Source: a virus. From it: a DNA stretch of 25,141 nt. The position numbers and the translations under genes are program-made. Below are positions 1-20,894 of this stretch, piece after piece. Each line of letters begins with the position of its first letter. Position 1 is the first letter of the stretch. The notes under the pieces are model-generated. The model made no database searches and was not told the DNA's origin. It saw only the letters and a list, made by a program, of their open reading frames with translations. Where the stretch lies: the IMG/VR virus record IMGVR_UViG_3300049157_000010, positions 1 to 25,141 of that record, one strand, 5' to 3'.

Positions 1-1277
1 CCACTTTAATGTCGGATGGGACGAAACTAAAAGGGAAATTTACGCCAGAACAAACCACGCAATTATATGAGGATCACTTTAAGAATGGCACGGCGTACCC
101 AGTAAACTCCCGCAAGCATAAGCAACGCAAGGTTGTCCAGCGGATCATGACCGCATCAGGCGTTCTAGAGACAACGGAATGGCCAGGTAAATACATCCCG
201 GTAGTGCGTATTCTCGGCGAGGAAATCGTCATAAGCGGGGAAACGCGGCGCAAGGGAATGGTGCGGGATATGTCTGACACGCAACGGTCTTACAACTATA
301 TGAGATCTGCGTCCGCCGAGCGTGCCTTGCTAGCACCTAAGGCGCCTATTATTGGGGCAAGGGGCGCCTTCGCGGATCCTAAATGGCGTGATTCCAATAA
401 AAAGAATTTCCCGTATTTAGAATATGAGCCAATTCCAGGTGAACCACCACCTAGCCGACAACCGCCGGTAGACATATCCCCGGGGCTAGTGAATGAAATT
501 CAAATGTGCGCAGAGGAACTTAAGGCGATCACGGGCATTTATGACCCTGCCTTAGGTAATCGAGCAAATGAGGTTAGCGGTATCGCAATCAGAGAACGCA
601 AGGAAGAATCCGACGTTTCAAATTTTCACTACACTGATAACCTAGCAAGAGGCCAACGATTTAACGGCATTATTCTGATTGATCTTATTCAAAAAGTTTA
701 CACTGGCGATCGTATTGTAAGCATACTACATGGTGATGGTAGGGAAGAAAGAGTACAGCTTAATCAGCCTTTTATGGACGACAAGGGAAAGCAGCAAAAT
801 TACGATCTAACAGTGGGTCGCTATGATGCGGTTGTCGACGTTGGACCTAGCTATGCGACGCAAGAGAAGGAATCGGCTGAAGGAATGCTTGAATTCGGTA
901 AGATTTACCCAGAATCGATGCCGCTAATGGGCGATCTAGTGGTTAAGTCTATGCGCTGGCCAAACTCTGAGGAACTGAGCAAGCGGCTACAGTTAGCGCT
1001 ACCACCTGAAATCCTCAAAGGCGAATCACCCCAGATCGCTCAAATTTTGCAGCAATCTGAACAAGAGAAATCGCAGTTACAGCAAGTAATCCAACAGCTA
1101 CAGCAATACGCGCAACAACTACAGCAAGCGCTCACTGACAAACAGGGTGAGACCGCACTGAAGCAACGCGAGATTGAGCGCAAGGAAGAGGAAACCAAGA
1201 ACAAGCATATCGAAGGCATGACCAAACTAGAAATCGATTCAAATAAAGACCTTGGACAATTTGGGGCGTACATGTGA
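1..1277 (+). CDS. Portal protein, P22-like (5' end outside window)
   Basis: This is the C-terminal part of a P22 gp1-type portal, the dodecameric ring at the packaging vertex through which DNA enters and leaves the capsid. The frame is open to the left edge, so the Met at position 9 is internal; 422 residues follow it, against roughly 700 in full P22-like portals. The segment AITGIYDPALGNRANEVSG followed by IAIRERKEESD and FHYTDNLARG matches the conserved core of the family as I know it. Residues about 345-410 are very rich in Gln, Glu and Lys and should form the C-terminal helical barrel or coiled coil. Scaffold and coat genes follow, as in P22. The stop TGA overlaps the next start (TGATG). 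The family assignment is strong and comes from motif recognition, not from a search. Confidence 0.92.
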   Translation, partial: TLMSDGTKLKGKFTPEQTTQLYEDHFKNGTAYPVNSRKHKQRKVVQRIMTASGVLETTEWPGKYIPVVRILGEEIVISGETRRKGMVRDMSDTQRSYNYMRSASAERALLAPKAPIIGARGAFADPKWRDSNKKNFPYLEYEPIPGEPPPSRQPPVDISPGLVNEIQMCAEELKAITGIYDPALGNRANEVSGIAIRERKEESDVSNFHYTDNLARGQRFNGIILIDLIQKVYTGDRIVSILHGDGREERVQLNQPFMDDKGKQQNYDLTVGRYDAVVDVGPSYATQEKESAEGMLEFGKIYPESMPLMGDLVVKSMRWPNSEELSKRLQLALPPEILKGESPQIAQILQQSEQEKSQLQQVIQQLQQYAQQLQQALTDKQGETALKQREIERKEEETKNKHIEGMTKLEIDSNKDLGQFGAYM

Positions 1278-4049: not shown

Positions 4050-4342
4050 TGAATGTAAAAACACTATATAACACTGATTTTTCAGGCACAGAAAAAAACG
4101 TCCCTGATGTCGTCAAATATGGTGATTGCGACTCTTTTCAGCTTCTATTTAAAGCATCAAGTGAAAATGAGGGTTGGATGAAAAGCACAAAGGCGTTCGA
4201 TGTGGGTACAGGCTGCCTTGTTCAAGTAACTACGCAACAAAGAAATCCAGACGGTAGTTATTCTCTTGCAGAAGCATTGGCGTTTGTACCAGGCGTTAAA
4301 ATAGATGGGACTGAGGCAGATCGAAGATTGATCTCAAAATGA
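4049..4342 (+). CDS. Hypothetical phage protein in the head gene block
   Basis: A 97-residue protein that I cannot assign to a named family. It has a compact globular pattern, with DSFQLLFKASSENEGWMKSTKA followed by a beta-like stretch GCLVQVTTQQ and EALAFVPGV near the end. No membrane segment, signal peptide or metal-binding motif is visible. It is coupled on both sides: its ATG overlaps the stop of the small basic gene (TAATG) and its TGA overlaps the sulfotransferase start (ATGA). Position suggests a head-associated or accessory structural protein, but that is inference from neighbourhood only. Confidence 0.75.
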   Translation: MNVKTLYNTDFSGTEKNVPDVVKYGDCDSFQLLFKASSENEGWMKSTKAFDVGTGCLVQVTTQQRNPDGSYSLAEALAFVPGVKIDGTEADRRLISK

Positions 4343-5187
4343 CCGACTACCGCCAAATAAATTGGCTTGCGAGCTATCCGAAAAGCGGATCGACTTGGAT
4401 TCGCTGTTTGCTTGACGCGTATTTTCTGGGTGCGTTAGATATTAATGAACTGTTATCTGCAACAACTGACAACCTTTCGACTAGGTTTGATCTTGGCGAT
4501 GGTGTTGACCCAGTTGACTATCCGCTAGACATACAACACCTTATTAGATCTACTGCTTTGCTTCGTCTTGTCGTTTCTTACAATCTAGGCAAGGTGTCCG
4601 ATATGCCTTTGGTTGTTAAAAGCCATAACGCCAACGTTATAGCTAACGGGATTGAACTGATACCGTACGCTTTGACAAAAACAATAACTTTGATTGTGCG
4701 AGATCCTAGGGACGTGTTGCCGAGCTTTGCTAGGCATATGGGGAAAGGTATCAAGGAATCAATTAAATTTATGAAAAACAATAAATTCAGGCTAAAGTCC
4801 AAAGGGACACGTATGTCTGATTTTGTTTCGTCATGGGATGAGCATACTGCCTCATATGTGGAACGGTCGCACCATGATCCGCTTGTTATTAGATATGAGG
4901 ATATGGTTGAAGATACCAAATACTGGTTTCAGCAGTATCTAGAACATATCGAGGTGAACGTTGACCATACCCGACTAGCAAAAGCGGTTGATATGGCAAA
5001 CATTAAGATTGTTAAGGCTCAGGAAATAAACTCAGGTTTTAAAGAAAAAAGCCACCACTCACCAGATGAGCTATTTTTTGGCGGGACTAATCCGGTAGCT
5101 ACGCGAGATGATTTAGCAGCGGTCAAAGCGGTATTTAGACACACAATGATGCGCTTAGGGTACCTAGGTGTTAAGAGGGCCGCATAA
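4339..5187 (+). CDS. PAPS-dependent sulfotransferase
   Basis: A 282-residue enzyme of the Sulfotransfer_1 type, which moves a sulfuryl group from 3'-phosphoadenosine-5'-phosphosulfate to a hydroxyl or amine. The 5'-phosphosulfate loop is SYPKSGSTW (residues 12-20). KSHNAN (94-99) places His96 where the catalytic base of these enzymes lies. The 3'-phosphate motif is RDPRDVLPSF (121-130) with Arg121 and Ser129. VIRYEDMVED (183-192) is another family mark. Length is typical and no key residue is missing, so it should be active. There is no signal peptide, hence a cytoplasmic enzyme. It is translationally coupled to the head-tail adaptor gene. The acceptor is unknown; it could be a virion protein or glycan, or a host surface sugar or metabolite. 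Confidence 0.9.
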   Translation: MTDYRQINWLASYPKSGSTWIRCLLDAYFLGALDINELLSATTDNLSTRFDLGDGVDPVDYPLDIQHLIRSTALLRLVVSYNLGKVSDMPLVVKSHNANVIANGIELIPYALTKTITLIVRDPRDVLPSFARHMGKGIKESIKFMKNNKFRLKSKGTRMSDFVSSWDEHTASYVERSHHDPLVIRYEDMVEDTKYWFQQYLEHIEVNVDHTRLAKAVDMANIKIVKAQEINSGFKEKSHHSPDELFFGGTNPVATRDDLAAVKAVFRHTMMRLGYLGVKRAA

Positions 5188-5873
5188 TGGCAACAACTTA
5201 TAGTGAGCTCATAACCGAAGTACAGGATGAGCTTGCAGACAATACCGAACTAACGGACGAAGTTGTTAAGCGTCTGATAGGTCGGGGTGAGGCAAAGCTC
5301 AATAGACGCTGCCGATTGCGTGCTATGGAAAAGCTTAAGAGTCGTCCTTACACAATTGACGACACTACGGCAAGAATAAATCACCCTATCGATATGGTTG
5401 AAATGCTGTATGTGCAGATAAAGCGCCAAGAGGAATCTGACTCAGATTATTACAATTTGCAGTATGTCACGCCGCATCGTATGCCGGAATATGCCGACCT
5501 ATCGTTAGGATACTACACCTTGCGGGATAGGCTGGAATTGAATGCGACTGTAGTAAATCCTCACACTGTAAGGATGCACTATATTGGTAGGTTCGATATT
5601 GCGACCAATCTAACAAATTGGTTGCTAACGAACGCGCCCGACCTTTATTTGTATGCGGCATGCGCAGAAGCTACGTTGTATTTCAAGGATAAAGAGGCTG
5701 CCACATACTACGCAATACAGCTAAGAGAAGGAATCAGAGACCTTAACAGTCTGGACGAAAGAGGTAGGGATGATGGTGTGGCCGATATTAGGGATTACGC
5801 CTATATGACAGGCGGGTCATACGCTTATCGATATCGTGGTTATGGCGGCAGTTACAACATTGCTAAAGGCTAA
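5187..5873 (+). CDS. Head-tail adaptor, SU10/P22 gp4-like
   Basis: A 228-residue protein resembling the adaptor ring below the portal in SU10-like and P22-like podoviruses. The N-terminal helix pair carries the pattern LIGRGEAKLNRRCRLRAMEK (residues 30-49), typical of the SU10 adaptor family. A middle beta region follows. Near residues 150-175 the segment APDLYLYAACAEATLYFKD matches the conserved 'P-D-L-Y-L-Y' helix of these adaptors. The C-terminal tail is rich in Tyr and Gly (GGSYAYRYRGYGGSY), likely extended. It starts as TAATG on the sulfotransferase stop and ends as TAATG on the next gene. In P22 this gene lies between coat and nozzle, as here. Confidence 0.8.
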   Translation: MATTYSELITEVQDELADNTELTDEVVKRLIGRGEAKLNRRCRLRAMEKLKSRPYTIDDTTARINHPIDMVEMLYVQIKRQEESDSDYYNLQYVTPHRMPEYADLSLGYYTLRDRLELNATVVNPHTVRMHYIGRFDIATNLTNWLLTNAPDLYLYAACAEATLYFKDKEAATYYAIQLREGIRDLNSLDERGRDDGVADIRDYAYMTGGSYAYRYRGYGGSYNIAKG

Positions 5874-7636: not shown

Positions 7637-10515
7637 TGATAAGGTTACTATTTTTATTGTTAATCCCCGTTTTTGTGTTTGCGGCTGGCGTTCCACAATT
7701 TGCGGGTCAAGATGTATTTAATAGCTACTATGCAAAATATGAGGCTGAAATCAATTGGTCTGACCCTACGCCAGGTCATGGTGTTGATTGCGCCACCGAT
7801 TCATCTCAAGTTAATAGCCAAGCGTCGGATGAGTATTTTGTAACTATTAACGGTGGTATTGAGTGGGACGCTATCCACAATACATCGCACTCTTATAAAA
7901 AAATATTCGTGTGCCCTGGTAATTATTCAAGGTCCGAGAAATATGGCGGACCCGATGGGGATGATTTGTACTTAACGCAAGGCGGGACGGATCTGCTAAC
8001 GGACAATAAGCCAGATTCGTCATGGCTGTATATAACATGGTGGAATGGTGGATCGTTCATACATCCCTATTCTCACTCCGCAGCGCAGAGGGCAATTGTC
8101 CCGCGTTTAGAATTCAGATCGACTATTAGCGCTATCGCTATTCGTGGGCTTACCCATACAGGCAGCGTGGCCAATACCGGCGCAGTGGATCTCACGCCTG
8201 CAACGATGGCGCAAAATATCATTTTCGATAAGGTATACGTTAATCCCGGTATCAACGGGGATGAAACTATCGGTAGTGGAGGTGGTGGTGGTGGTCTCAC
8301 CTACCCGCCGAATATTCCAGAGTGTCCAAATCCAGGGCTAGTATTTCGGTCTTCATTTGAAGCACCTGTTTATCTAACGTCTGAGTTTGGCGGTGTTGAT
8401 TCGCACGCTTTGCATGGTGGCGATCAGGGTTACGATTTTGACGACCTAGATCACCATTTCAACTATGTGCATCAGCAAGCGCTCGAAGACAACATAATCG
8501 AGACCGAAATAGACAGTTCTACGGCGCGTACGGGTAGTAGAAGCCTAAAGCAAACAGCGAACGATATTACAGGCGGCAGCCAAAACAGATTCCAATGGTA
8601 CGGGCACGATGATGATAGTCGCGGACCCTTTGGTAAGGCTACATTTTCCAGACGTTGGATAAAGTGGGGTAAATCAGTTCCCGAGCTGTTAGGCGATAGC
8701 GACAATTTTTGGATCATGGGCGTACGTCGCACGTCTGACTATTCGGTATCAATGGGTATTCACCATAACGGCAGCATTCACCGTTGGCGGTTTGCGGGCT
8801 TGAGTTATGAGTCTGGCACTAAATGGTCGGAATGGACTAACCCGAGTAATAACGGGTGGTTGGTTTATAACGAAACGTTGCCGTTTCCTAAGAAAAATGA
8901 ATGGTTTTTATTAGAGTTTTTCTTCCTGCGTGACAATGACCCAGATAAGGGGCGAGCGATCATATGGATCGATGGGGAAGTCCTATTTGATATCCATAAC
9001 GTGACAAAAGAATCATCAAATTCTGCGCATCGGTGGTTTGCAAAAGTGAGCGACATCGATGGGTCTGGCGGTGCTAACTGGCCGTTTTGGCAGCATGTGG
9101 ACGACATGGAACTATGGTCATGTACGCAAGGCGATACTTCCCCCCCTGGTATAGGTGGTGGCGGTACGCCAATAACGGGAACGATCACGGGCGACGGTAT
9201 TTTGATGGCGTCAACGAATTCAGATATCACGATACAAAACTCGGTTATTACGGGATGCGGTTATGAAGCGAACCAAGATGACAACGGTATAGAGTATGGT
9301 GGCGCTGACAACGTGCGCATAGTCAATAACGAGATTTTTGATTGCACCACCAATATTGCGGGTGGGTGTAATAACTGTGAAAGCAGGGGCGTGTTTATCG
9401 AGAACAATGATTCTTACCATACGTCAGCATCGTGGGCAAGCTTAGATGGTGCGCCTGGATCCGATGAATCGCCTGATTTTCCCGACGCAAGCGGAGATTA
9501 CAGTTGCAGAGAAAACTTGATCGCTCCACATGGTGCTTCTAACACTTCAGAGCTTGATTCGGATAGGCAAGAAATCATCAAAAACCGAATGTGGGGCGCA
9601 AAGCCAGGGTTTTCGGGTAGTGGGTGTACGTGCGGGGGAGATGGCCAGTATAGCAATTCGGCGATATTTGGTTTTGCAAGAGATTTTAAGCGAATCCTTA
9701 TCAAGGACAATATTTTCCACGATCTAGGCGTGTCGGCCGTTAAGTGGACTGGAATAGATACCGGACTTGCTGACAAATTCAGCATGATCGGGAACATATT
9801 CGCCGACATTAATAACAATGATGCAAGAGACTCAGGTTCGGGCGGGACGTGCGGCAGCATATCGACGCCTATTGATGTAGCGGCCGTACACTTTCTAGGT
9901 AGCACGAACCTGGAAACGTACATGAATACGATGATTAGGGTGAAGGCGGGTTCTAGCTCAGGGTCGGGCACGTTTTACGATACGGCGGGTAGAACTAACC
10001 CTATTGAATTTCGCTGCAATATGGCGATTGATAGCGACGACAAAGAGGGTTCGGACCCTACCCCAGGCCATGTTAATTGGAATGCGTATATAGGGACAAC
10101 GCCATGGACAGTGACAAACGAAACAGCGGATAGTTATAACGCTAGCGCAATCACTTGGGCGAGTAGCGCACCTATTTCCCTAGGCACATGGGTGGCGCCT
10201 ACCACAACCACCTGTACCGTAGGCAATGAGCCCGGATGCTTTCTATTTGTGGCGGAGTCAGCCGGTACAGCGGACGCTACAGAACCGTCATGGTGCAACA
10301 CTCTCGGGTGCGCAGTGACAGACAACGGTGTTATTTATCGCGCAGCACTTGCGCCCTATGCCTTCGAGCGCAAGCGGTGGACAGGACCGGAAACGAAAAT
10401 CTTAAAGGCTGTTACCCCCTGGGGTGGGAAAACCGACTGGACAGTGTGCTCAGGGAAAATATTGGGACTAACTAGCGGTTTTGGCGTAGATGATTCTACA
10501 TTTGAGTTCCCCTAA
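7636..10515 (+). CDS. Parallel beta-helix tailspike candidate with inserted jelly-roll domain
   Basis: A 959-residue protein. Residues 1-17 (MIRLLFLLLIPVFVFAA) look like a cleavable signal peptide, rare for a phage structural protein. Parallel beta-helix repeats occur before and after an insertion: AQNIIFDKVYVNPG near 200, then NSDITIQNSVITGCG, NVRIVNNEIFDC, RGVFIENNDSYH, ILIKDNIFHDLG and FSMIGNIFADI. Between them residues about 228-500 form a separate domain bounded by Gly linkers, resembling a concanavalin-type polysaccharide lyase or lectin (WFLLEFFFLRD, GRAIIWIDGEVLFDI). A C-terminal segment EPSWCNTLGCAVTDNGVIYRA resembles a short module common in phage tails. I count 18 Cys. It probably binds or degrades a host surface polysaccharide; the catalytic residues cannot be named. 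It is coupled by TAATG to both flanking tail genes. Confidence 0.7.
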   Translation: MIRLLFLLLIPVFVFAAGVPQFAGQDVFNSYYAKYEAEINWSDPTPGHGVDCATDSSQVNSQASDEYFVTINGGIEWDAIHNTSHSYKKIFVCPGNYSRSEKYGGPDGDDLYLTQGGTDLLTDNKPDSSWLYITWWNGGSFIHPYSHSAAQRAIVPRLEFRSTISAIAIRGLTHTGSVANTGAVDLTPATMAQNIIFDKVYVNPGINGDETIGSGGGGGGLTYPPNIPECPNPGLVFRSSFEAPVYLTSEFGGVDSHALHGGDQGYDFDDLDHHFNYVHQQALEDNIIETEIDSSTARTGSRSLKQTANDITGGSQNRFQWYGHDDDSRGPFGKATFSRRWIKWGKSVPELLGDSDNFWIMGVRRTSDYSVSMGIHHNGSIHRWRFAGLSYESGTKWSEWTNPSNNGWLVYNETLPFPKKNEWFLLEFFFLRDNDPDKGRAIIWIDGEVLFDIHNVTKESSNSAHRWFAKVSDIDGSGGANWPFWQHVDDMELWSCTQGDTSPPGIGGGGTPITGTITGDGILMASTNSDITIQNSVITGCGYEANQDDNGIEYGGADNVRIVNNEIFDCTTNIAGGCNNCESRGVFIENNDSYHTSASWASLDGAPGSDESPDFPDASGDYSCRENLIAPHGASNTSELDSDRQEIIKNRMWGAKPGFSGSGCTCGGDGQYSNSAIFGFARDFKRILIKDNIFHDLGVSAVKWTGIDTGLADKFSMIGNIFADINNNDARDSGSGGTCGSISTPIDVAAVHFLGSTNLETYMNTMIRVKAGSSSGSGTFYDTAGRTNPIEFRCNMAIDSDDKEGSDPTPGHVNWNAYIGTTPWTVTNETADSYNASAITWASSAPISLGTWVAPTTTTCTVGNEPGCFLFVAESAGTADATEPSWCNTLGCAVTDNGVIYRAALAPYAFERKRWTGPETKILKAVTPWGGKTDWTVCSGKILGLTSGFGVDDSTFEFP
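8272..9166 (+). other. Jelly-roll domain inserted in the beta-helix, flanked by glycine linkers
   Basis: It codes for about 300 residues between a GSGGGGGG linker (8272-8295) and a GIGGGG linker (9147-9164). The domain opens with GLVFRSSFEAPVYL and closes with HVDDMELWSC. The surrounding beta-helix rungs read as continuous if it is removed, which suggests an inserted module. Confidence 0.6.
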
Positions 10516-11507
10516 TGCCTATTTTTGACGACATCGGCAGAACAACGGGTATCCCCGGCGCAATCGATGCTGGGGATCAAGGTGAAATAATTGTTTCGCA
10601 GCCGTCATATGCCGTTCCGGTTGCAGATTCGTTTTCAGCCGGAACTTATTTTTTACACGGAACTGAACCACTAGATGTAAGTAATGGAAGTACATGGGTA
10701 GCGTCCAGTACTTTGCGGATATTCAACAATGAGCTGGATTTTTTAAATCTTAATGAGGCGGCGCGGATCTTGTTCGGATCTGTGGACCAATTCGTTAGGA
10801 TGAAATACAACGCTGGCGGGTTCGACAATAGGTTAGCTGTTCTTGCTAGAGCCATTTATTCAGGCAGTACTATCGTTAGCGCGTACGGCATTGATTTTAG
10901 GCAAGGCGATGGTGAGATACGAATAAGTCGCTATACGAATGACGTGGCTACGTCGCTCGGATCTTACATGGTGTCGCTCGGATCTTCGACTGACTATAAG
11001 TTAGGTATACGCGTACAAGGGTCAACGATTACAGGCTATCTTGACGACGAAAAGGTAATACAAGTTACAGATACGGTGTACACGCTTGGCGTACACGCTG
11101 GTTTTAAGCTAATCGGAATAAATAGCGGTACTTCTAGCGGTGATGATTTCCAGCTAGACCATGCTCAGGAAATAAGGTCTTCCATTGCAAGCATAGATGT
11201 CGCCTCATTCGACGCAGTTCTTGCTAGTCAGGAGGTTAACGCGTCTGTAGGCGTAATTGCAGTTGCAAGCATTAACGCGACAGTAACAGCAAGCGATTCG
11301 CTGTCATCGAGCGTTGGGGTTGTCTCGGTATCCAAAGTAAACGCCTCAATCGAGATTGTTATATACGATACTAATATCGTCGCAACAATAGGTAGGGCTA
11401 ACGTCGTTAGTTTTGACGCTGTAGTAATTAACGAATATGTGGATTTATGGGTTTCCCCGGAGTCTACAAGTGATGAATGGGTAAGTGTTGATATAGTGAA
11501 CTTTTGA
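10515..11507 (+). CDS. Tail protein with one lectin-like domain, paralogue of the gene at 5873
   Basis: A 330-residue protein. Residues about 37-215 are a diverged copy of the lectin-like module duplicated in the gene at 5873. Matching landmarks are ADSFSAG, VDQFVRMKYNAGGFDNRL, YKLGIRVQG, YLDDEKVIQVTD and HAGFK. It is followed by four short beta repeats (IASIDVASFDAVL, VGVIAVASINATV, VGVVSVSKVNASI, IGRANVVSFDAVV). The C-terminal tag has Trp312 and Trp322, the same ten-residue spacing as in the larger paralogue. The first ~36 residues are unique and may be an attachment segment. Likely a second, shorter receptor-binding or fibre subunit. Start ATG overlaps the stop of the beta-helix gene (TAATG). 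Confidence 0.72.
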   Translation: MPIFDDIGRTTGIPGAIDAGDQGEIIVSQPSYAVPVADSFSAGTYFLHGTEPLDVSNGSTWVASSTLRIFNNELDFLNLNEAARILFGSVDQFVRMKYNAGGFDNRLAVLARAIYSGSTIVSAYGIDFRQGDGEIRISRYTNDVATSLGSYMVSLGSSTDYKLGIRVQGSTITGYLDDEKVIQVTDTVYTLGVHAGFKLIGINSGTSSGDDFQLDHAQEIRSSIASIDVASFDAVLASQEVNASVGVIAVASINATVTASDSLSSSVGVVSVSKVNASIEIVIYDTNIVATIGRANVVSFDAVVINEYVDLWVSPESTSDEWVSVDIVNF

Positions 11508-11974: not shown

Positions 11975-12775
11975 ATGCCTATTGAAGATACAGCCGCTTT
12001 TGTTGGCAACTGGTCGTCAAGTGCTGCGAGTAACAAGCCTACTGATAACCCAGGCAAGCGAATCGATGGTGCAGGCGAAATAAGGCAGCTTAAGAAGGTA
12101 ATAAAGGACTCATTCCCTAATGTGTCGGGTGCCGTAACAAGGACGCAGCAACAACTAAATGCCATCGATATAACAACTAGCTTGAGTGATGCGCTTGCGG
12201 CAAAAGCAACTATTTCCTATGTTGATACGCAAATAGCTTCTGTTAGTGGCGCAGCGGTCACACAAGCCTATGTCGACTCTGCAGACCAAACTAATGCTAC
12301 AGGGATAGCTACTAATGCCGCCAATATACTTTCAAATGATAACGAAATAGCATTTTTGAATGATGTTGTTGGTCCATCTAACGCTTCGTTTGATTCTACA
12401 GGTGGCGGCGGTCTTGCGTTCACAACTAGCTTCCAGACGCTTGAGACGACAGAAATCACATTAGCGAAGTCCACAACCAGCGTTATAGCGTTGGGGAATC
12501 TTTACATCGCTAATGGGTCCGTTGAGACTCCGTTGCTTGAATGGAGGATTGTGCAAGATCCATTCGGGTCGCCTTCGGTTATTTCGTTTACAAACTCACA
12601 ACCATTGCCAGCTTCAAGTGTATTGTCACTCCCGACTGTGTTGGGTTTTGTCTCGGGGTCGTTTGGTGTCAATGAGGTATTTGGATTGCAGGGTAGAATT
12701 ACGGCTGTACCGGGCGCTGGCACTATCTCGTTTACATCGGGCGCCATTGCGGTAATAGAAGTAACCGTTCCATGA
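11975..12775 (+). CDS. Tail fibre / needle-like protein candidate
   Basis: A 266-residue protein. The N-terminus contains GAGEIRQLKKVIKDSFPNV and then VTRTQQQLNAID, a segment typical of the virion-attaching part of podovirus tail fibre proteins in my recognition. Residues about 65-125 are Ala/Asp/Thr-rich with a helical, coiled-coil-like pattern (VTQAYVDSADQTNATGIATN). The rest is beta-rich and globular (LEWRIVQDP, FGLQGRITAVPGAGTISF), fitting a receptor-binding or trimer tip. P22 has its needle gp26 near the nozzle gene, and this protein with a helical shaft and a globular tip could fill that role, but no gp26 motif is evident. Its TGA overlaps the next ATG. Confidence 0.6.
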   Translation: MPIEDTAAFVGNWSSSAASNKPTDNPGKRIDGAGEIRQLKKVIKDSFPNVSGAVTRTQQQLNAIDITTSLSDALAAKATISYVDTQIASVSGAAVTQAYVDSADQTNATGIATNAANILSNDNEIAFLNDVVGPSNASFDSTGGGGLAFTTSFQTLETTEITLAKSTTSVIALGNLYIANGSVETPLLEWRIVQDPFGSPSVISFTNSQPLPASSVLSLPTVLGFVSGSFGVNEVFGLQGRITAVPGAGTISFTSGAIAVIEVTVP

Positions 12776-14349
12776 AACTAGAGCTAAATAAGTTAGGGTC
12801 CATTGGCTTAATCACGGACGTTAACCCTCACGATTTGCCATCTAGCGCTATCACCGATGGCAAGAATGTGTCGTTTATTAATGGCTACATTACGCCAGCA
12901 AAGGGATATGAGTCCTATGTGGACTTAGCTCCAATTACGGGAACTGCGCAGTATTTAATACCGCTGCAAACCGATACCGATTACTTTTGGATATTCCCCG
13001 CTGATATAGATGGGGATGGGACTGCCGAGAAAATATACAAGTATGATGGCGGTACAACGGACAATATAACTCGGGTGTCTGGCGGTGATTACACTAGCGA
13101 CAATCAATGGAATGGTTGCATTCTTCACGGTGTCGTCATTTTGAATAACGGCGAAGATGCGCCTCAAAAGCTTTTCGAGTCAGACGCCAATTGTACTAAT
13201 CTTATTTATGACGGTGTAACGGATTGGGAAACGCAGGATTACAAGGCGAAAGTTATACGGTCGCATCGTAACTTTTTGTTTGCGTTGAACGTCACCGATG
13301 CGGGTGCCAGATATCGAACAATGGTGCATTGGAGCTCGCCCGCTGTACCAGGATCGGCCCCATCGAGTTGGGACTATACCGACCAAACAGAATTAAGTAA
13401 CCGCAGAGTATTGAGCCAGACCAATGGAGAAGTAATAGACGGGCTTACCCTTAGAGATGATTTCTTTGTATACAAAGAGGATTCCGCTTACGTCTTTACT
13501 TTCACGGAAGATCCGACATTTGTTTTTTCGTCAAGATCATTATTTCTTGATCGCGGTATTTATGCGCAAGATTGTGTTGTTGATATCGGGGGCGAGCATT
13601 TTGTGGTTGGCGATGGTCGTGTATACATTCACGATGGGACCACGCCACGAGATGTTTTATACGGCCGCAATGCAAAGGCGTTATTCGGTTCCATAGATCA
13701 AGATAACTATGAGAGAACTTTTTGCATTCATAACAGAAGCGCTTATGAGGTATGGGTGTGCTATCCCGAAGCTGGCGTTTCTGTTCCTAACAAAGCGCTT
13801 GTATATAACTACCTTGAAAACACATGGTCACCACCACGTGATATACCGTCGATCTATTACGCTGCCTTAGGCGTCAAGGTTGCTAGTTCGGTTAGCGACT
13901 ATTGGGATTATGAAAGCGTAATGACTTGGGACGCGGAGGACGAGCTAGTTTGGAACGAACAGCAATTCTCGCCAATAGGTGATGCACTCGTAGGTGCAGG
14001 TGCACATTTATGGCACATGGATACAGGTTTGCTATATAACGGCAGCACGCCAGACGTATCGGTTGAACGCAGTGGGTTGATTATTGAAAGCCCCGGCGCT
14101 TGGTACATGATAACTGAGGGATATCCAAAATTGGCGGGCGCTTCTGAGGTTCAACTGAGAATCGGCGGGCAAAAAGCTATAGGTGGCCCTGTTACATGGA
14201 GCAATAGCAGGACTGTCGGCGGTGGCTCTAACAGGAAAGTGAACTTTCGCGTGAATGCACCTATTCACGCGTGGCAATTATCGGGCGCGGGGGATTGGCG
14301 CCTTTACGGGATGGACGTAATCGCGAAGCTAACAGGTGGCGGCAGATGA
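12772..14349 (+). CDS. Tail nozzle protein candidate, gp10-like beta-propeller
   Basis: A 525-residue protein resembling the tail hub or nozzle of podoviruses (P22 gp10 / T7 gp12 role), which closes the DNA exit channel. The N-terminus LGSIGLITDVNPHDLPSSA followed by WTDG-like 'ITDGKNVSFINGYITPAKGY' is the usual opening of these proteins. Repeated beta blades follow: DYFWIFPADIDGDG, CILHGVVILNNGEDAPQKL, RNFLFALNVTD, VHWSSPAVPG, DDFFVYKEDSAYVFTF, GEHFVVGDGRVYIHDG and KALVYNYLENTWSPPRD. These fit a beta-propeller. The C-terminal region (residues about 430-520) is another beta domain. Its start overlaps the fibre gene stop (ATGA). Role inferred from architecture, length and gene order. Confidence 0.75.
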   Translation: MKLELNKLGSIGLITDVNPHDLPSSAITDGKNVSFINGYITPAKGYESYVDLAPITGTAQYLIPLQTDTDYFWIFPADIDGDGTAEKIYKYDGGTTDNITRVSGGDYTSDNQWNGCILHGVVILNNGEDAPQKLFESDANCTNLIYDGVTDWETQDYKAKVIRSHRNFLFALNVTDAGARYRTMVHWSSPAVPGSAPSSWDYTDQTELSNRRVLSQTNGEVIDGLTLRDDFFVYKEDSAYVFTFTEDPTFVFSSRSLFLDRGIYAQDCVVDIGGEHFVVGDGRVYIHDGTTPRDVLYGRNAKALFGSIDQDNYERTFCIHNRSAYEVWVCYPEAGVSVPNKALVYNYLENTWSPPRDIPSIYYAALGVKVASSVSDYWDYESVMTWDAEDELVWNEQQFSPIGDALVGAGAHLWHMDTGLLYNGSTPDVSVERSGLIIESPGAWYMITEGYPKLAGASEVQLRIGGQKAIGGPVTWSNSRTVGGGSNRKVNFRVNAPIHAWQLSGAGDWRLYGMDVIAKLTGGGR

Positions 14350-14612: not shown

Positions 14613-16343
14613 ATGGGAAATTTTTTTGGTGATATTGGTGGATTTCTCGAAGACACCGTTAGCAATGCGGGTGATTTCTTTGTAAGCCCATTGCTGGCGC
14701 AGGCCAATATGGTGGGAAATGCTACGGGTCTTACATCGGGTGGGCTTTTCGGGTCGGGTGGCCCCGATTCCATAACCAATGTAAGCCAGCAAGTGCCATG
14801 GGCACCATTACAGCCTCATTTGCAAAGCATGTATACCCAGGCGAGCACCTTGCCTGTACAGCGGCCCTACCCCGGCGCGACGGTCGCCCCAACCAACGTC
14901 AATCAAACATTGGGGCGTCAAGGATTGCTTCGCACTGCGGAGTTTGGGTTGCCGAATATCGCGCGTAAGGGAATGGAGCAATTCAATCAGCTCCAAAGTT
15001 ATGGGAGCGGACGCGGTTGGAGCAATGACCTACTTCCACGCGAGAATTTGCCGGGGCAAGTGGCGGGCTTTAATTTGGCACCCGCTGCCAATGTTGACCG
15101 GTACCAATCGCCTAGTATGCCGGGCCGCTTTGAGATTCCCGACGCGCCCAGTGCATCGCCGACGCAGTTGGCTGCAATGCTACCGCCAGCGCAGCTCGCA
15201 GGCATGCTGCAACCCGCTAATTTGCCAGGTCAGTTCGATCAAGCCATTGGCGATGTGACCCAGGATCCAGGCGTTCAGGCGCAGATAGCGGCGAACCGGG
15301 ATCAAGTCACCCAGGCCATGCTAGAGGATTGGCTGCCACGCACCAATATGAATGCGGTCGCTTTTGGCGGCATGGGTGGCAGCGGTCAAGGCAAGGCGCA
15401 GCAATTGGCGCTAGGACGCGGCGCAAGGGAGCTAGGACTGGCGAACGCGGCTACCTATGGCCAGGCCCGGGGGCAAAATGTTACGGCCAGGGGACAGGAC
15501 GTAACGGCGCGTGGCCAGGATATTACCGGGCTTCTAACCGGACGTGGCCAGGATGTGCAGCAAATCGGACAAAACCTTGCCGCTTATCTTCAGGGGCGTG
15601 GCCAGGATGTTACCCAGATCGGCCAGAATCTCGACGCGTATTTAACTGGACGCGGCCAGGATCTCACGACTGCACTGGGTGCAAGAGGGCAAACTCTAGA
15701 GTCGCTACTCGGCCAGCGTCAGCAAGATTTGACCGGTCGCGGCCAGGATATTACATCGGGCGTAAATCAGCGTGCTCAGGATCTAAACCGCATTTTGACG
15801 TCCAGAGGGCAAAACCTGGAATCCTTGCTAGGCCAAAGGACGCAAGACATCAATCAACGCAATGCCGACATTAACGCGCTCATTAACCAGCGCAATCAGG
15901 ATTACGTGGGGCGTGGCCAGAATCTAACGGCTAGGGGCCAAAACATTACCGCGGCAACGGGCGCAATGAATTTCCTTCCAACGCTGAGCAATCTGCAGAC
16001 CCAACCCTACTTGCTCCAAAACATGATCGGCGAGCAAATAAGGGCGGATGAGCAACGGCGCATAGATGCCGAGATTGCACGCCACAATTTCACCCAGCAA
16101 GCGCCTTATGACCGACTAGGCGCCATTAGCTCAATCTTGCAAGGCGGACCGGGATACGGAACTACTACCGCAACCGGACCCAACCCGAACCAACGCAATG
16201 AGTTCCAAGACTTGCTAGGACTTGGATTAACCGGCGCTGGTTTATTTATGGGCGGACCGGCGGGTGGGGTTGCGGGTAATGCGGTAGGACAAGGATTATA
16301 TGGCGGTGGTAGTCCGGTATTTGGCCGTGACTGGAATATATAG
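14613..16343 (+). CDS. Internal / DNA-ejection protein with 7- and 11-residue repeats
   Basis: A 576-residue protein at the place of the P22 ejection genes (gp7, gp20, gp16). The start MGNFFGDIGGFLEDTVSNAG is a helix like those opening other podovirus internal proteins. A Pro- and Gln-rich region follows, with a short LAAMLPPAQLAGMLQPANLPGQ repeat around 186-207. Residues 286-446 carry a motif R-x-Q-(D/N)-(V/I/L) (for example ARGQDVT) recurring every 7 or 11 residues, which predicts a long coiled coil or amphipathic helix. The C-terminal ~45 residues are Gly-rich and hydrophobic (LGLTGAGLFMGGPAGGVAG), a possible membrane-inserting segment. Likely ejected into the host envelope as part of the DNA conduit; inferred from order and composition. 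Confidence 0.72.
   Translation: MGNFFGDIGGFLEDTVSNAGDFFVSPLLAQANMVGNATGLTSGGLFGSGGPDSITNVSQQVPWAPLQPHLQSMYTQASTLPVQRPYPGATVAPTNVNQTLGRQGLLRTAEFGLPNIARKGMEQFNQLQSYGSGRGWSNDLLPRENLPGQVAGFNLAPAANVDRYQSPSMPGRFEIPDAPSASPTQLAAMLPPAQLAGMLQPANLPGQFDQAIGDVTQDPGVQAQIAANRDQVTQAMLEDWLPRTNMNAVAFGGMGGSGQGKAQQLALGRGARELGLANAATYGQARGQNVTARGQDVTARGQDITGLLTGRGQDVQQIGQNLAAYLQGRGQDVTQIGQNLDAYLTGRGQDLTTALGARGQTLESLLGQRQQDLTGRGQDITSGVNQRAQDLNRILTSRGQNLESLLGQRTQDINQRNADINALINQRNQDYVGRGQNLTARGQNITAATGAMNFLPTLSNLQTQPYLLQNMIGEQIRADEQRRIDAEIARHNFTQQAPYDRLGAISSILQGGPGYGTTTATGPNPNQRNEFQDLLGLGLTGAGLFMGGPAGGVAGNAVGQGLYGGGSPVFGRDWNI
15468..15950 (+). repeat. Coding repeat, R-x-Q-D/N-hydrophobic motif at 7- or 11-residue steps
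   Basis: Within the ejection protein the motif Arg falls at residues 286, 293, 300, 311, 329, 347, 358, 369, 376, 387, 398, 409, 416, 427, 434 and 441; Ile replaces Arg at 318 and 336. All steps are exactly 7 or 11. At DNA level the unit shows as repeated GGCCAGGAT-like words. Confidence 0.9.
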
Positions 16344-16352
16344 GGGGATGTG

Positions 16353-17624
16353 ATGGCGTTCGATTTCAACCAATACATGGCCAACCCTATGACCCAAATC
16401 GGTTTAGGGTTGTTGGGCAACAATCAGGGCAATTATGGCGGATTTGGCTTGCAAGGGATTGGGCAAGGCTTGCAAAACACTATGGCTGTACGCCAGCAGC
16501 AAGCCGAGCAAGAACGGTTGCGGCAAATGCAGGAAATGCGTCAACAGCAATTCGATATGCAACGCCAAGCCTTTGATCAAACTCTAGCGGATAGGCAAGG
16601 GGTCAGTAGGGCTATTGGTAGCTTATTGGGGTCAACCCAGGTAACAGGTGTCCCATCGATTGGTACGGGAACGGCGCAGCAAGGGCCACAAGACGATCTA
16701 GAAGCGTTGCGGGTTCTAGCGCAACACAAGCCAGAAATATACAAATCGATTCTCTCTCAAAGGGAAACGGCGAAAGCGTTAACGACGCAGCGGTATCTGG
16801 AAAAACAGGCGGATGATTTCCTGCAATACGCTGAACAAAACGATGTGACGCCAGCAGAGTTTCCAGAATACATGCTACCCAGGCTACAAAAAGCCTACCC
16901 TGATTACGCTAAAAGCATTATCGACGCGCGCAAGAAATCGATTGAGACAGACAAAGAACTCGTTTCGATGGGAATGGATCCCGGTAGCAATGAGGCGCAA
17001 CGGGCGATGCGGCAGAGATTAGGAATAATCCCTAAGGATTGGGAAGTGATGAAAGAAGCTATTGCAGTAGCTAGCCAAATCACCCAGAAAAGTAAAGATA
17101 AGCTTTCAGGTGAGGCGGGACTTCGAAAGGAATTGACTGGCCAGCAACGGGATTACAAAGATTTCAATGTGCAATATGCCGGGTTGTTGGATAGCTATGA
17201 GCAAGCAACCGCAAACAAAAATCTCAAGTCGAATGTTGCGGACGTTGCACTGATTACCCAATTTATCAAAATGGGTGACCCAGGTAGTACCGTAAGCTCA
17301 AGCGAAGCGGCGGGCGTGGCTTCTACGCGTGGCGCTAGCAGTTGGGCGCAGGGGCTTTATGATCGTGTGGTAAAGGGCAAGGGTTTGCTGACCCAGGGCG
17401 AGCGCGATCAAATCAGAATGCTAGCCGAGCGCAGGCGGCAGTCCTATGAATCAACTAATGCGAGCCTATTGAAAGGGTACCAGGGCATTGCAGAGTCCGC
17501 TGGCTATGACTGGACGCGGATCAATGTAGTACCAGGGGTACAGCGAGAAACGGGCTCAGTGGCGCCCTCGACGCGCAAAGAGGGGGAGTATTTCTTAGAT
17601 CCGCTCACCGGGTGGAGTCAATGA
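16353..17624 (+). CDS. Second internal / DNA-ejection protein
   Basis: A 423-residue protein. A GTG at 16350 is in frame, but ATG 16353 is preferred, with GGGGGA ending about four bases before it. The N-terminus is Gly/Gln-rich (NQYMANPMTQIGLGLLGNN, then GFGLQGIGQGLQ). A strongly Gln-, Arg- and Met-rich helix follows at residues about 48-88 (QAEQERLRQMQEMRQQQFDM), a likely coiled coil. The rest is charged and helical and ends in an extended hydrophilic tail. This helix-rich, Gln-rich composition after a nozzle gene is typical of podovirus internal virion proteins. No enzymatic motif is visible. It is followed after one base by the third protein of the group. Confidence 0.7.
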   Translation: MAFDFNQYMANPMTQIGLGLLGNNQGNYGGFGLQGIGQGLQNTMAVRQQQAEQERLRQMQEMRQQQFDMQRQAFDQTLADRQGVSRAIGSLLGSTQVTGVPSIGTGTAQQGPQDDLEALRVLAQHKPEIYKSILSQRETAKALTTQRYLEKQADDFLQYAEQNDVTPAEFPEYMLPRLQKAYPDYAKSIIDARKKSIETDKELVSMGMDPGSNEAQRAMRQRLGIIPKDWEVMKEAIAVASQITQKSKDKLSGEAGLRKELTGQQRDYKDFNVQYAGLLDSYEQATANKNLKSNVADVALITQFIKMGDPGSTVSSSEAAGVASTRGASSWAQGLYDRVVKGKGLLTQGERDQIRMLAERRRQSYESTNASLLKGYQGIAESAGYDWTRINVVPGVQRETGSVAPSTRKEGEYFLDPLTGWSQ

Positions 17625-17625
17625 A

Positions 17626-19296
17626 ATGCCAATCGTAAACGTTAAAGGTTTTGGGAAGTTTCATATGCCCGAAGGTATGAGCCGCGATCAAATGGAAACG
17701 GCCATTCGGGTGAAAATATCGGAGATAACCACGCGTGAGGCATTCGGCAGTTCCAATGCCGCAAAGCCCTATGAGCCTTTACCGGATTGGGCTGAGGGCT
17801 ACTTAGATCCGGGAATCGGGGCAATCCAGTTTGCAAGTAAATTCGGCCCAAAAGCGCTTAATGAGCGTATTCAAAACCAAGTTAATGCACGCGAGCTGGG
17901 CATTGCAAAGCAGCGCAAGGCAGAGGGGGATGAAGGCTTTGACGTAGGGCGTATGCTCGGCAGCGTGGGTGCCACGTTGCCGATGGGCTTCGCGGGTATG
18001 GTACCTAGAGCACTCAGTTTTATGGGTGCCGTAGGGCGTGGTGCGGCGTCGGGTGCAGGTGGTTCCCTATTGGCGCCAAAGGTGGCTGATAAAGAATCCG
18101 ATTATTGGAAGCAAACCAGGGATCAGGGAATCCTAGGCGGTGTTTTAGGCGCGGGTCTAGGTGGTGCGGGTGCCTTTCTAGCCCCCAAAGTGACTGCGCA
18201 AGCCCAGAAGCTTATGGATAGAGGCGTACGCTTGACGCGTGGACAGCAAGCGGGTGGGACCGTAAAACGAATCGAGGATATGGGCCGATCTATGCCTTTC
18301 ATGGGTGCCAAAATCACGGAAGAAACCAACAAATCGCTGGACGACTTTAATAGGGCGCTTGGCCAGGATCTCTTAAGCGATGTCGGCGAGATATTGCCAG
18401 AAAGCGTTAAGCCCGGTCACGGAATGATTAGCTACGTCACTAAGAAGGTGTCTGACAAATACGATGATACGCTGGCGAAAATGTCGGGCCAAATGGACGA
18501 TGAGCTTGATGACGACATAATGCAAATCTACGGGCAATACGTGGATAGCAATGCGCCTAAGGGATTGCGTAAGGAATTCGAGGGATTATTGCAGCGGGAA
18601 GTGATCGACACCATTGGATCCGGTCCGGTCGATGGCAAGGTGCTGCAAGCCACTCAATCGCACATCAAAGATGCCATTGCCAAGAACAAGCGAGCCAAGG
18701 AATACCTCAGGGGTAGGGTGCTAGTCGATGCCCAGGAACAGCTAAAGGACGCAATCGATAGGATGCTTGCTCGGCAGAATGCGCCCGATCTAGTAGACGA
18801 TCTCGCAGGGGCGAACCGGGCTTTTGCCAAGCGCAAGATATTGGACGATGCATTCTCGCGAGCGGGTGTAGATGCGCGTGGCGGTTTTGTTATGCCTAGC
18901 CAATATGGTGCGGCTATTAGAGCGGCAAGAAGCACTACGAAATCTCAGATCGCGCAGGGCAAAGGATTGGGTCAAGACTTCGCGGCCGCTGCGGAGGAAA
19001 TGCTCCCACCGAAATATGCCGATAGCGGAACGGCCGGTAGAAGCCTAAGCAATATGGGTGGGATTCTAAGCATCCTAGGGTTGGCTGGGGAAGTGGACCC
19101 AATAGTAGGCGCGTCGATTTTTGGAACCGGCGCACTAGGGTCATTGCCCTACTATCTTCCCCAGTCGGTAAGCCCGATGTTGCGCGATGCTATGACGGCG
19201 GGAACACCGGGCTTGTCTATGCTTATGTCGATGCCGCAGACCCCTGACTTATCAGGTATGCAACCAGAACTATATAACCCACTATTTCCACGTTAG
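17626..19296 (+). CDS. Third internal / DNA-ejection protein
   Basis: A 556-residue protein. The first ~35 residues (VKGFGKFHMPEGMSRDQMETAI) match a short N-terminal motif found in many phage internal virion proteins, of the form 'F-x-x-P-x-x-M-x-x-x-x-M-x-x-A-I'. Two Gly/Ala-rich hydrophobic stretches around residues 105-150 and 165-190 (GILGGVLGAGLGGAGAFLAP) could insert into membrane. The middle is charged and helical. The end carries another Gly-rich hydrophobic region (LSNMGGILSILGLAG, then GASIFGTGALGSLPYYLP). No lysozyme or transglycosylase motif was found. It probably forms part of the trans-envelope DNA channel. It is the last late + strand gene; its final 74 bases overlap a candidate small gene on the opposite strand. 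Confidence 0.7.
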   Translation: MPIVNVKGFGKFHMPEGMSRDQMETAIRVKISEITTREAFGSSNAAKPYEPLPDWAEGYLDPGIGAIQFASKFGPKALNERIQNQVNARELGIAKQRKAEGDEGFDVGRMLGSVGATLPMGFAGMVPRALSFMGAVGRGAASGAGGSLLAPKVADKESDYWKQTRDQGILGGVLGAGLGGAGAFLAPKVTAQAQKLMDRGVRLTRGQQAGGTVKRIEDMGRSMPFMGAKITEETNKSLDDFNRALGQDLLSDVGEILPESVKPGHGMISYVTKKVSDKYDDTLAKMSGQMDDELDDDIMQIYGQYVDSNAPKGLRKEFEGLLQREVIDTIGSGPVDGKVLQATQSHIKDAIAKNKRAKEYLRGRVLVDAQEQLKDAIDRMLARQNAPDLVDDLAGANRAFAKRKILDDAFSRAGVDARGGFVMPSQYGAAIRAARSTTKSQIAQGKGLGQDFAAAAEEMLPPKYADSGTAGRSLSNMGGILSILGLAGEVDPIVGASIFGTGALGSLPYYLPQSVSPMLRDAMTAGTPGLSMLMSMPQTPDLSGMQPELYNPLFPR

Positions 19297-19630: not shown

Positions 19631-19855
19631 CTACTTTAGTTTAATCACGTTGGTGTAGAATGACCGCATTATGTACCTGCTAATCTGTATTTGATTCTTA
19701 TCCACTTTTGTCGAGTCTGGCAAGTAAATGTATTGGTCACCCACAAGCTGGCTTTCAAGCCTATTGATGTAGTGCTTCAGTGCATTTATTACCGTTAGCA
19801 TTTCCTCTTTGTAAATAGCCACAATGATCGAGTCACTAGGATCTAGGATGTACAT
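19631..19855 (-). CDS. Hypothetical protein, 74 residues
   Basis: A small soluble-looking protein with a central amphipathic helix (KEEMLTVINALKHYINRLESQ) followed by a beta-like piece (DQYIYLPDS) and a basic C-terminus (RYIMRSFYTNVIKLK). The ATG overlaps the stop of the Rha-domain gene as TAATG, so the two are probably translated together. No family is recognised. It could be a partner of the upstream regulator, but there is no direct evidence beyond coupling. Confidence 0.65.
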   Translation of the reverse strand: MYILDPSDSIIVAIYKEEMLTVINALKHYINRLESQLVGDQYIYLPDSTKVDKNQIQISRYIMRSFYTNVIKLK

Positions 19856-20682
19856 TAGTGATACTCGTCTTTATAGAAGGCGTCGAGCATGGCTTTAGGG
19901 TAGGTGTTTACTGTACCCCATACAGGGTGTGGTGCGCGGCCCAATTCAATGCCATTATTATTGGCAATTCCGGTCAAGGTTCTACCGGCGCTATTGGCTT
20001 CGTTGTTGCTTATAGAATAATGACGATATAGCTTATTGTAAGCCGTAATCGAGAAATGCTCCGCGCCGGATGCAAAGTCCTCGATTTTCCCCTCAGTGAT
20101 GCGCTGGCGTTCGGCAATGATCTTTTGCTCGACCTCTAGGGCCGCTACACGGCGTTCGTGTTCAACGAGTAGTTGAGCCTGGACAACTAGGAGTTCTGCG
20201 GTAGTTTTTGGCTTTTTGGCCTCCTCAAGCTCCATCCAGCGGTCGATTAAGCGCATACGGTGCTCAATGCTGTATCCGGTCACTAGAAGCAAGGTGCCTT
20301 TCTTAGTGCACATAACTTCTCTGCGGCTTTCGCCTTTTTCGTCCATGTAATTGGTGTTTGTAAATAACCGACTCATATCTGAGTTGGTTGAAATGTCGCT
20401 TACAATAGCTTTATCTATATCACGTATAACGTTGGCATGCCGTTTCTCACAAATCTCCGCGATCTCGCGGCTGCTCATGGTCAGGTCGTTCAAGGTCATT
20501 AGGTTGTTCATGGGTTGTGGCTCTTCTTTAATTAAAGTGGCAATAAACTCCGCTCTCCCCCGATAGCCCCCAGCCTTAACGGCAGTGTCTATTGAATCGA
20601 TGACTATTGGCGATAGATAAAGCTCGATCTTTTTAAGATTTGTTTGCTTACGCCATTTTTTTTGTGATTTAGTGGTTGCCAT
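19855..20682 (-). CDS. Rha-family phage regulator with ribbon-helix-helix-like N-terminus
   Basis: A 275-residue protein if translation begins at the second of two tandem ATG codons (20682), which is better spaced from AAGGGGGA than the first at 20685. In the numbering from the first ATG, residues about 17-53 (KKIELYLSPIVIDSIDTAV, then YRGRAEFIATLI) resemble a ribbon-helix-helix DNA-binding unit. Residues about 66-151 are a Rha-type domain (TMSSREIAEICEKRHANVIRD, then TLLLVTGYSIEHRMRLIDRW). A coiled coil follows at 163-200. A C-terminal module at 208-272 (FSITAYNKLYRHYSI, HPVWGTVNTYPKAMLDAF) resembles ones seen in phage antirepressors. Rha proteins are phage regulators known from lambdoid phages. 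It likely binds DNA and regulates phage or host genes. Confidence 0.8.
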   Translation of the reverse strand: MATTKSQKKWRKQTNLKKIELYLSPIVIDSIDTAVKAGGYRGRAEFIATLIKEEPQPMNNLMTLNDLTMSSREIAEICEKRHANVIRDIDKAIVSDISTNSDMSRLFTNTNYMDEKGESRREVMCTKKGTLLLVTGYSIEHRMRLIDRWMELEEAKKPKTTAELLVVQAQLLVEHERRVAALEVEQKIIAERQRITEGKIEDFASGAEHFSITAYNKLYRHYSISNNEANSAGRTLTGIANNNGIELGRAPHPVWGTVNTYPKAMLDAFYKDEYH

Positions 20683-20894
20683 CATTCCCCCTTAGGCGGC
20701 TCTGCTAGCAACGCCTGGATCTTGTTTAGGGCAAGGATGAGTGCACCTATAGCGCCTGCTAGATATGGGCCGTATCCGATTGAGCTAATTGGCTCGCCTG
20801 GTTGCAGGCTAGCGTAAAGAGACGACAGCGTGGTTAGGAAAGAAATCGCCGCGCCGTTGAATGCGCTTAGGATTACTTTTTGGGTTTTGGTCAT
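20682..20894 (-). CDS. Two-helix membrane protein, holin-like candidate
   Basis: A 70-residue protein with two hydrophobic segments, about residues 9-28 (SAFNGAAISFLTTLSSLYAS) and 44-63 (YLAGAIGALILALNKIQALL), a short loop containing PGEPISS, and a polar C-terminus (EPPKGE). Size and layout fit a class II type holin, the pore former that times lysis, but many small phage membrane proteins look similar and no endolysin gene is in the window. The start overlaps the preceding stop as ATGA and the stop overlaps the Rha gene start. Confidence 0.55.
   Translation of the reverse strand: MTKTQKVILSAFNGAAISFLTTLSSLYASLQPGEPISSIGYGPYLAGAIGALILALNKIQALLAEPPKGE

Follow-up and report, generated by a model that had tools for sequence, protein, structure and literature searches.

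The window, as we call the whole 25,141-base stretch of a viral record that was analysed, encodes a protein in which a short motif recurs 18 times at steps of only 7 or 11 residues. We consider it on balance probable that this is an ejection protein whose straight, amphipathic 7/11 helix is used side by side in a trans-envelope DNA conduit, akin to the H protein of phiX174. The way in which short-tailed phages cross the envelope of Gram-negative hosts is poorly resolved because ejection proteins diverge and refold on ejection, and a fixed 7/11 motif across unrelated-looking ejection proteins would offer a sequence handle on the conduit. Such a motif predicts which residues pack and which face the lumen, it lets array-type ejection proteins be recognised in unannotated phages and, since P22 gp20 already carries it, the idea is testable in P22.

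Motif and spacing of the array

The open reading frame at 14613-16343 (+) was translated into 576 amino acids and the motif was found at 18 positions across a stretch of 155 residues (residues 286-441), the first base of codon 286 being 15468. The positions were 286, 293, 300, 311, 318, 329, 336, 347, 358, 369, 376, 387, 398, 409, 416, 427, 434 and 441, which gives the steps 7,7,11,7,11,7,11,11,11,7,11,11,11,7,11,7,7, i.e. 8 sevens and 9 elevens. A sequence-only reading of the window had counted 18 positions between the same two residues and given the same order, and both were reproduced exactly from the translation. The motif had been described there as Arg-x-Gln-Asp; its recurrence stood but its strictness was slightly overstated, given that the strict form was present in 10/18 copies and R-x-Q-[DN] in 14/18. 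The form R-x-[QA]-[DNT]-hydrophobic was present in 16/18 copies, and positions 318 and 336 read I-G-Q-N. Counted by column over the 18 copies, R has 16 occurrences, Q 17, D 11 and N 6, with G at position +1 in 13 copies and L, I, V or Y at position +4 in all of them. The 11-residue unit is the 7-residue unit with four extra residues after position 6 (RGQDVT-A versus RGQDIT-GLLT-G).

The 7/11 spacing pattern is not due to chance. In 20,000 shuffles of the segment there were never more than 4 motifs or more than 1 fitting spacing, compared with 16 and 15 observed, and when 16 motifs were placed at random in 200,000 trials no more than 9 of the 15 spacings fitted, compared with all 15 in the window. 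Nor is the array the product of a recent tandem duplication: no DNA tandem array was detected in the repeat region by Tandem Repeats Finder, the sole repeat reported being a 10-bp repeat at 16171-16194 that is unrelated to the array. Codon identity among copies sharing a residue was close to the expectation from codon usage for R (0.21 versus 0.26), Q (0.49 versus 0.50) and D (0.53 versus 0.53), and above it for Gly (0.42 versus 0.28). Given that the residues persist while their codons match at roughly the rate set by codon usage, the repeat pattern appears to be old and is probably maintained by selection.

Genome neighbourhood and family of the array protein

In the window, the portal is of the P22 type and the adaptor of the SU10 type, the major head protein belongs to PHROG 283 and a further virion protein to PHROG 3287; the source is a short-tailed phage related to P22, LUZ24 and phiEco32. 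The genes used for orientation are:

3..1277, + strand, P22-type portal protein, 5' truncated at the window edge (Pfam PF16510, E=7.7e-100)
5187..5873, + strand, SU10-type adaptor protein (Pfam PF24175, E=4.9e-21)
12772..14349, + strand, upstream virion structural protein, PHROG 3287, LUZ24 gp56 family (E=3.8e-90)
14613..16343, + strand, array protein of 576 aa, ejection-type, LUZ24 gp53 / phiEco32 gp23-24 family (PHROG 4287, family HMM, hhalign)
16350..17624, + strand, next gene, 424 aa, PHROG 13634, second putative ejection protein (PHROG match; synteny with locus L102)
17626..19296, + strand, third gene, 556 aa, place and order as P22 gp16 with marginal similarity (BLASTP E=0.007, single comparison)

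The PHROG 3287 gene matched 267 phage records and links the window to LUZ24, phiEco32, Bjorn and Vibrio phages. The array gene follows it and precedes other ejection-type genes, which is the position of the PHROG 4287 family. The two genes downstream of the array gene occupy the places of further, putative ejection proteins; a PHROG 13634 gene (BLAST E=6e-7) also adjoins the 1,620-aa array protein of locus L102, and the third gene had no PHROG match.

The array protein itself matched the PHROG 4287 'DNA ejection protein' family at residues 413-553 (E=9.8e-11). A family HMM grown from a LUZ24 gp53-type protein finds relatives across IMG/VR. Its alignment to the window protein falls into three pieces (53, 82 and 71 bits), of which the middle one extends for part of its length into the array; the window protein was itself among the hits of this model. 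When the alignment of the relatives was used without the window protein, hhalign gave a probability of 97% over residues 443-555. The array is located between the conserved N- and C-terminal parts of the protein, which is divided as follows:

14757..15002, + strand, N-terminal conserved part, residues 49-130 (GG..T..PW..QP; family HMM piece 1, 53 bits)
15210..15467, + strand, conserved helix and glycine turn ahead of the array, residues 200-285 (family HMM, alignments, AlphaFold helix 219-250)
15468..15965, + strand, 7/11 array, residues 286-451, 18 copies of R-x-Q-[DN]-phi (motif spacing and predicted helix)
15975..16259, + strand, C-terminal conserved part, residues 455-549, a helix and then a Gly/Ala-rich hydrophobic tail (family HMM piece 3, 71 bits; hhalign)

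The glycine turn reads GGMGGSGQG at about residues 252-260 of the window protein and GQYGGSRQG in relatives. Family, operon place and the N- and C-terminal parts are common to the window protein, LUZ24 gp53 and phiEco32 gp23/gp24 (PHROG 7477 and 4287), whereas the latter proteins are about 310-350 aa long and have no long array. Given the PHROG 4287 match, the gene position and the homology to LUZ24 gp53 and the phiEco32 ejection proteins, the assignment of the array gene product as an ejection (internal virion) protein appears well supported, in line with the DNA-ejection context suggested by the sequence-only reading. In the phiEco32-like phage SU10, gp20-24 are absent from the virion after genome release (PMC9509320), which indicates that they are ejected.

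No match to the array protein was obtained by tblastn against phages or by a peptide scan of IMG/VR, a failure attributed to low-complexity masking and divergence, and the relatives were reached via the neighbouring PHROG 3287 gene. Most of these relatives are without the long array, which is thus not essential to the family. P22 gp7 and T7 gp14 share the gene position of the array gene as the first of the ejection proteins, and P22 gp7 also has a Gly-rich C-terminus, but their usual size is 181-240 aa (PMC8954989) compared with 576 aa here. Membership of the P22 gp7 family is not claimed, the likeness being limited to 33 Gly-rich C-terminal columns (probability 69%) with no match to Pfam PF25688, and profile comparison with T7 gp14 gave a probability of 0.1%, i.e. 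no similarity.

Two further observations concern this family. In phiEco32 (L205 10292-12325) two adjacent genes belong to the same ejection family, both PHROG 4287, in an apparent duplication. Three relatives (L011 9021-10115, L069 9230-10258 and L078 9979-11268) have a C-terminal segment like S74-type (intramolecular chaperone/peptidase) domains (SDRRLKRNIVKVG..LGVMAQEVQ), an odd terminal segment in an ejection protein.

The spacing rule in other phages

Arrays in other ejection proteins were collected by a scan with a 7-step DNA pattern and by reading of all open reading frames, and in a separate scan of IMG/VR the gap was left free so that the spacing result was not pre-selected. The free-gap scan yielded 37 matches at spacing 7, 15 at spacing 11 and 1-3 at any other length; the matches at 7 and 11 were nearly all real R-G-Q-D pairs and most of those at other lengths were chance frames, two real pairs being found at 14 (7+7). 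Among 226 distinct consecutive R-x-Q-[DNE] pairs at most 40 residues apart in other phage loci, 223 were spaced by 7, 11 or their sums, i.e. 7 (101), 11 (72), 18 (38), 29 (9) and 14, 25 and 36 (1 each), with exceptions at 20, 26 and 27; some of these loci were picked by the 7-step pattern, so the excess of 7 over 11 carries little weight, while the lack of other spacings is independent of the selection. The sequence-only reading had turned on whether step lengths vary freely in homologues; the sizes were fixed, and when repeats were compared among related phages it was the number and order of the steps that differed.

Long arrays were found in L102 (28 copies in a protein of 1,620 aa) and in L187 (a protein of at least 981 aa). 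Both genes adjoin a PHROG 3287 gene, which indicates that the same gene slot holds arrays of different length, and the PHROG 13634 neighbour of L102 is also shared with the window. The array proteins of L120 and L103 were 49% identical over 222 residues, an 11-step being aligned to a 7-step by a gap of four residues and a further gap comprising seven residues. These gaps suggest growth or loss in register-preserving amounts, and the 7-against-11 alignment agrees with the earlier suggestion that the array grew by insertion of four residues.

Short versions of the array were present in P22 gp20, with RGQ[DN] at residues 223, 230 and 241 (steps 7, 11), in Sf6 gp12 at residues 220 and 227 (step 7), and in phage S149 (11), Bjorn (11, 11), LUZ24 gp51 and NV1 (18). 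P22 gp20 and Sf6 gp12 (Pfam Inj_translocase, PF16928) thus have copies at the same steps as the window protein but form a separate ejection protein family, the members that were read having 0-3 copies compared with 18. Several IMG/VR array proteins matched the gp20 family PHROG 2534/917, whose proteins leave the phage when the host is infected, and together with P22 gp20 this indicates that two kinds of ejection protein carry the motif. It is tempting, if clearly more speculative than the conduit reading of the window protein, to regard R-x-Q-[DN] at 7/11 steps as a general code for an uncoiled (18/5) conduit helix in both the LUZ24 gp53-type and P22 gp20-type families, in which units might change without loss of register and the length of the conduit might be tunable.

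Neither the motif nor its 7/11 spacing was described in the open-access papers searched. Helical DNA-delivery proteins are already known, and the interleaved R-x-Q-[DN] array is a variant not described in those papers.

Several analyses of spacing were set aside. A family-wide lag analysis (peaks at 4, 7, 11, 18 and 36) was discarded, given that the peaks at 18 and 36 were gone without L072 and that an N-terminal control gave similar peaks at 4 and 22. A second IMG/VR scan (gap 35-65, no Thr constraint) had much background among the matches listed and its peak at 18 was not used alone, and a scan of genomic contigs was nearly all background with one distinct pair. Pfam suprabasin and collagen hits to L102 were composition artefacts.

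In P22 gp20 the motif stretch (residues 223-244, L203 2736-2800) falls where the Inj_translocase match (12-228) ends or past that point. The giant array proteins of L102 (2226-7088, -) and L187 (5389-8331, +), presumed ejection proteins, have in common a calcium-loop-like segment, DxNNDGKMDFNDFxIFAANQNK, that resembles dockerin or EF-hand loops. An 834-aa relative (L072 9061-11565, +) carries a helical 18-residue array whose motif differs (LG..LA.EQARLGL..QR), preceded by another, separate array, of about 9-10 residues (APQIxFxPx).

Helix geometry and predicted structure

Heptads give left-handed and hendecads slightly right-handed coiling, an unstrained helix has about 3.63 residues per turn, and the four-residue insertion that turns 7 into 11 is the textbook 'stutter' (PMC4786415). 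Sevens and elevens were nearly balanced in the window (8/9) and in L102 (21/20), L187 (11/11), L186 (5/5), L120 (3/4) and L103 (4/3), with a mean of 3.605 residues per turn in the window and 3.59-3.61 across the six arrays. With units drawn at random the chance of such a balance in all six arrays was about 0.001, a probability weakened by the homology within two pairs and by the counting of spacing 18 as 7+11, which partly builds the balance in; we regard a balance beyond random as suggestive only. The order of the steps in the window gave a phase walk no tighter than that of a random order, and only the 8:9 balance stood out.

The period of the window array differs from that of a canonical coiled coil with a uniform 3.5 or 3.67 residues per turn: the phase analysis that the sequence-only reading had called for put it between the heptad and the hendecad values. 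Given that 8 sevens and 9 elevens come close to the unstrained period, the hydrophobic stripe would hardly supercoil, which supports the near-straight geometry proposed in that reading. Drift of the stripe over the 155 residues came to about 20-110 degrees, according to the helix taken as reference, several times below that of a pure heptad. Hydrophobicity peaked at 99.25-100 degrees per residue (a period of 3.60-3.62 residues) in the window, L102, L187 and L120 arrays. The arrays of L186, L072 and L077 had their strongest peak away from 100 degrees, as expected where an 18-residue unit adds harmonics. In the window the directions were 38 degrees for hydrophobic residues, 7 for Arg, 211 for Gln and 227 for Asn, which places Gln about 170 degrees from the hydrophobic stripe and sets a hydrophobic/Arg side against an amide side. 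The net charge of the array is only about +3.

Without an alignment, AlphaFold predicted residues 260-453 as a single helix, most of the array having a pLDDT of about 92, in a setting where single repetitive sequences easily give over-predicted helices. With 32 relatives it gave two helices (258-354 and 360-448) separated by a weak break at 355-359 (pLDDT about 51; pTM 0.31). The prediction that the array is a long alpha-helix is well supported; Gly follows Arg in most window repeats, which is unusual for a stable helix. The computed length was about 29 nm for one helix and about 14 nm for the arms of a hairpin. Foldseek matched no solved structure, and its viral matches had low TM.

Comparison with known DNA-delivery proteins and alternative explanations

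The H protein of phiX174 forms a decameric alpha-helical tube (residues 151-271) with three hendecads, a kink and then eleven heptads, and N, Q or R occupy 18 of the 23 inward positions of its lumen (PMC7354561). It resembles the window array in combining helical repeats of 11 and of 7 residues within a protein that delivers DNA, but its repeat types are segregated whereas the window array interleaves them about 1:1 with an R-x-Q-[DN] motif; the likeness is one of repeat pattern, the window array being known from sequence and a predicted helix. Sf6 gp12 assembles as a decamer, the channel of which measures about 25 angstrom; the coiled coil predicted for residues 222-293 has been assigned to the stem, and the phiX174 H tube fits this stem (PMC4755594). 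The Sf6 gp12 motif (220-230) is located at the start of this predicted coiled coil.

The array combines two interchangeable units: one is the heptad R-x-Q-D-phi-T-x, the other a hendecad that adds four residues, usually hydrophobic in the middle. Near-equal numbers of the two hold the period at 3.60 residues per turn and the predicted helix almost uncoiled, with the hydrophobic/Arg stripe and the opposite Gln/Asn-rich stripe running nearly straight along it. By analogy with the H protein and Sf6 gp12, such helices may form a tube with the amide side towards the DNA, the number of units would set the length of the conduit, and a straight slim helix could pass the tail channel without unfolding.

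The array may instead turn back on itself near residues 355-359, giving two antiparallel arms, each about 14 nm long, packed against one another and against the flanking helices; it would then be a compact stalk or spacer and not a tube wall. The broken helix of the 32-sequence model is compatible with this, and straight 18/5 helices would fit antiparallel packing as well as tubes. We nevertheless consider such a hairpin unlikely, given that the break is weakly predicted, that the motif register runs through it unbroken (347 to 358 to 369), that the single-sequence model is one helix and that the 28-motif array of L102 would require several hairpins.

It also seems quite unlikely that the array acts non-specifically in the capsid, as a spacer or to condense DNA, a role for which any helix would suffice and in which the 7/11 steps would stem from tandem duplication of one unit. 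Low-complexity composition, variable length and absence from most relatives would suit such a role, but R, Q, D and the hydrophobic position have been kept in spite of randomised synonymous sites, motif pairs hardly ever show another spacing and the rule recurs in a second protein family, that of P22 gp20.

Very doubtful is a helix lying on or in the envelope, or forming an outer-membrane pore, in the manner of apolipoprotein 11-residue repeats: there was a weak Pfam apolipoprotein match (E=3e-4), but the hydrophobic moment is low (mean 0.28 per 18 residues), the charge is near zero, the lipid-binding score exceeded its threshold of 0.68 in only 11% of the segments scored and the Gly/Ala-rich hydrophobic tail elsewhere in the protein is the likelier membrane part. 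The insertion of T7 gp14-type ejection proteins in the outer membrane (PMC8954989) is a precedent for this alternative. Membership of the Apolipoprotein A1/A4/E family was rejected (Pfam 21 bits against a cut-off of 90).

Other features of the window

A sulfotransferase-like gene at 4339-5187 (+; Pfam PF00685, E=4e-12) lies between the capsid and adaptor genes and is unusual cargo for a head/tail structural operon. A Rha/Ant-type anti-repressor at 19855-20685 (-; Pfam Phage_pRha, E=3e-16; PHROG 63) hints at temperate ancestry. Related copies of a lectin/laminin-like domain, from weak Pfam hits, were found in two genes, at 5873-7636 (two copies) and 10515-11507 (+), and are possibly virion or fibre decorations.
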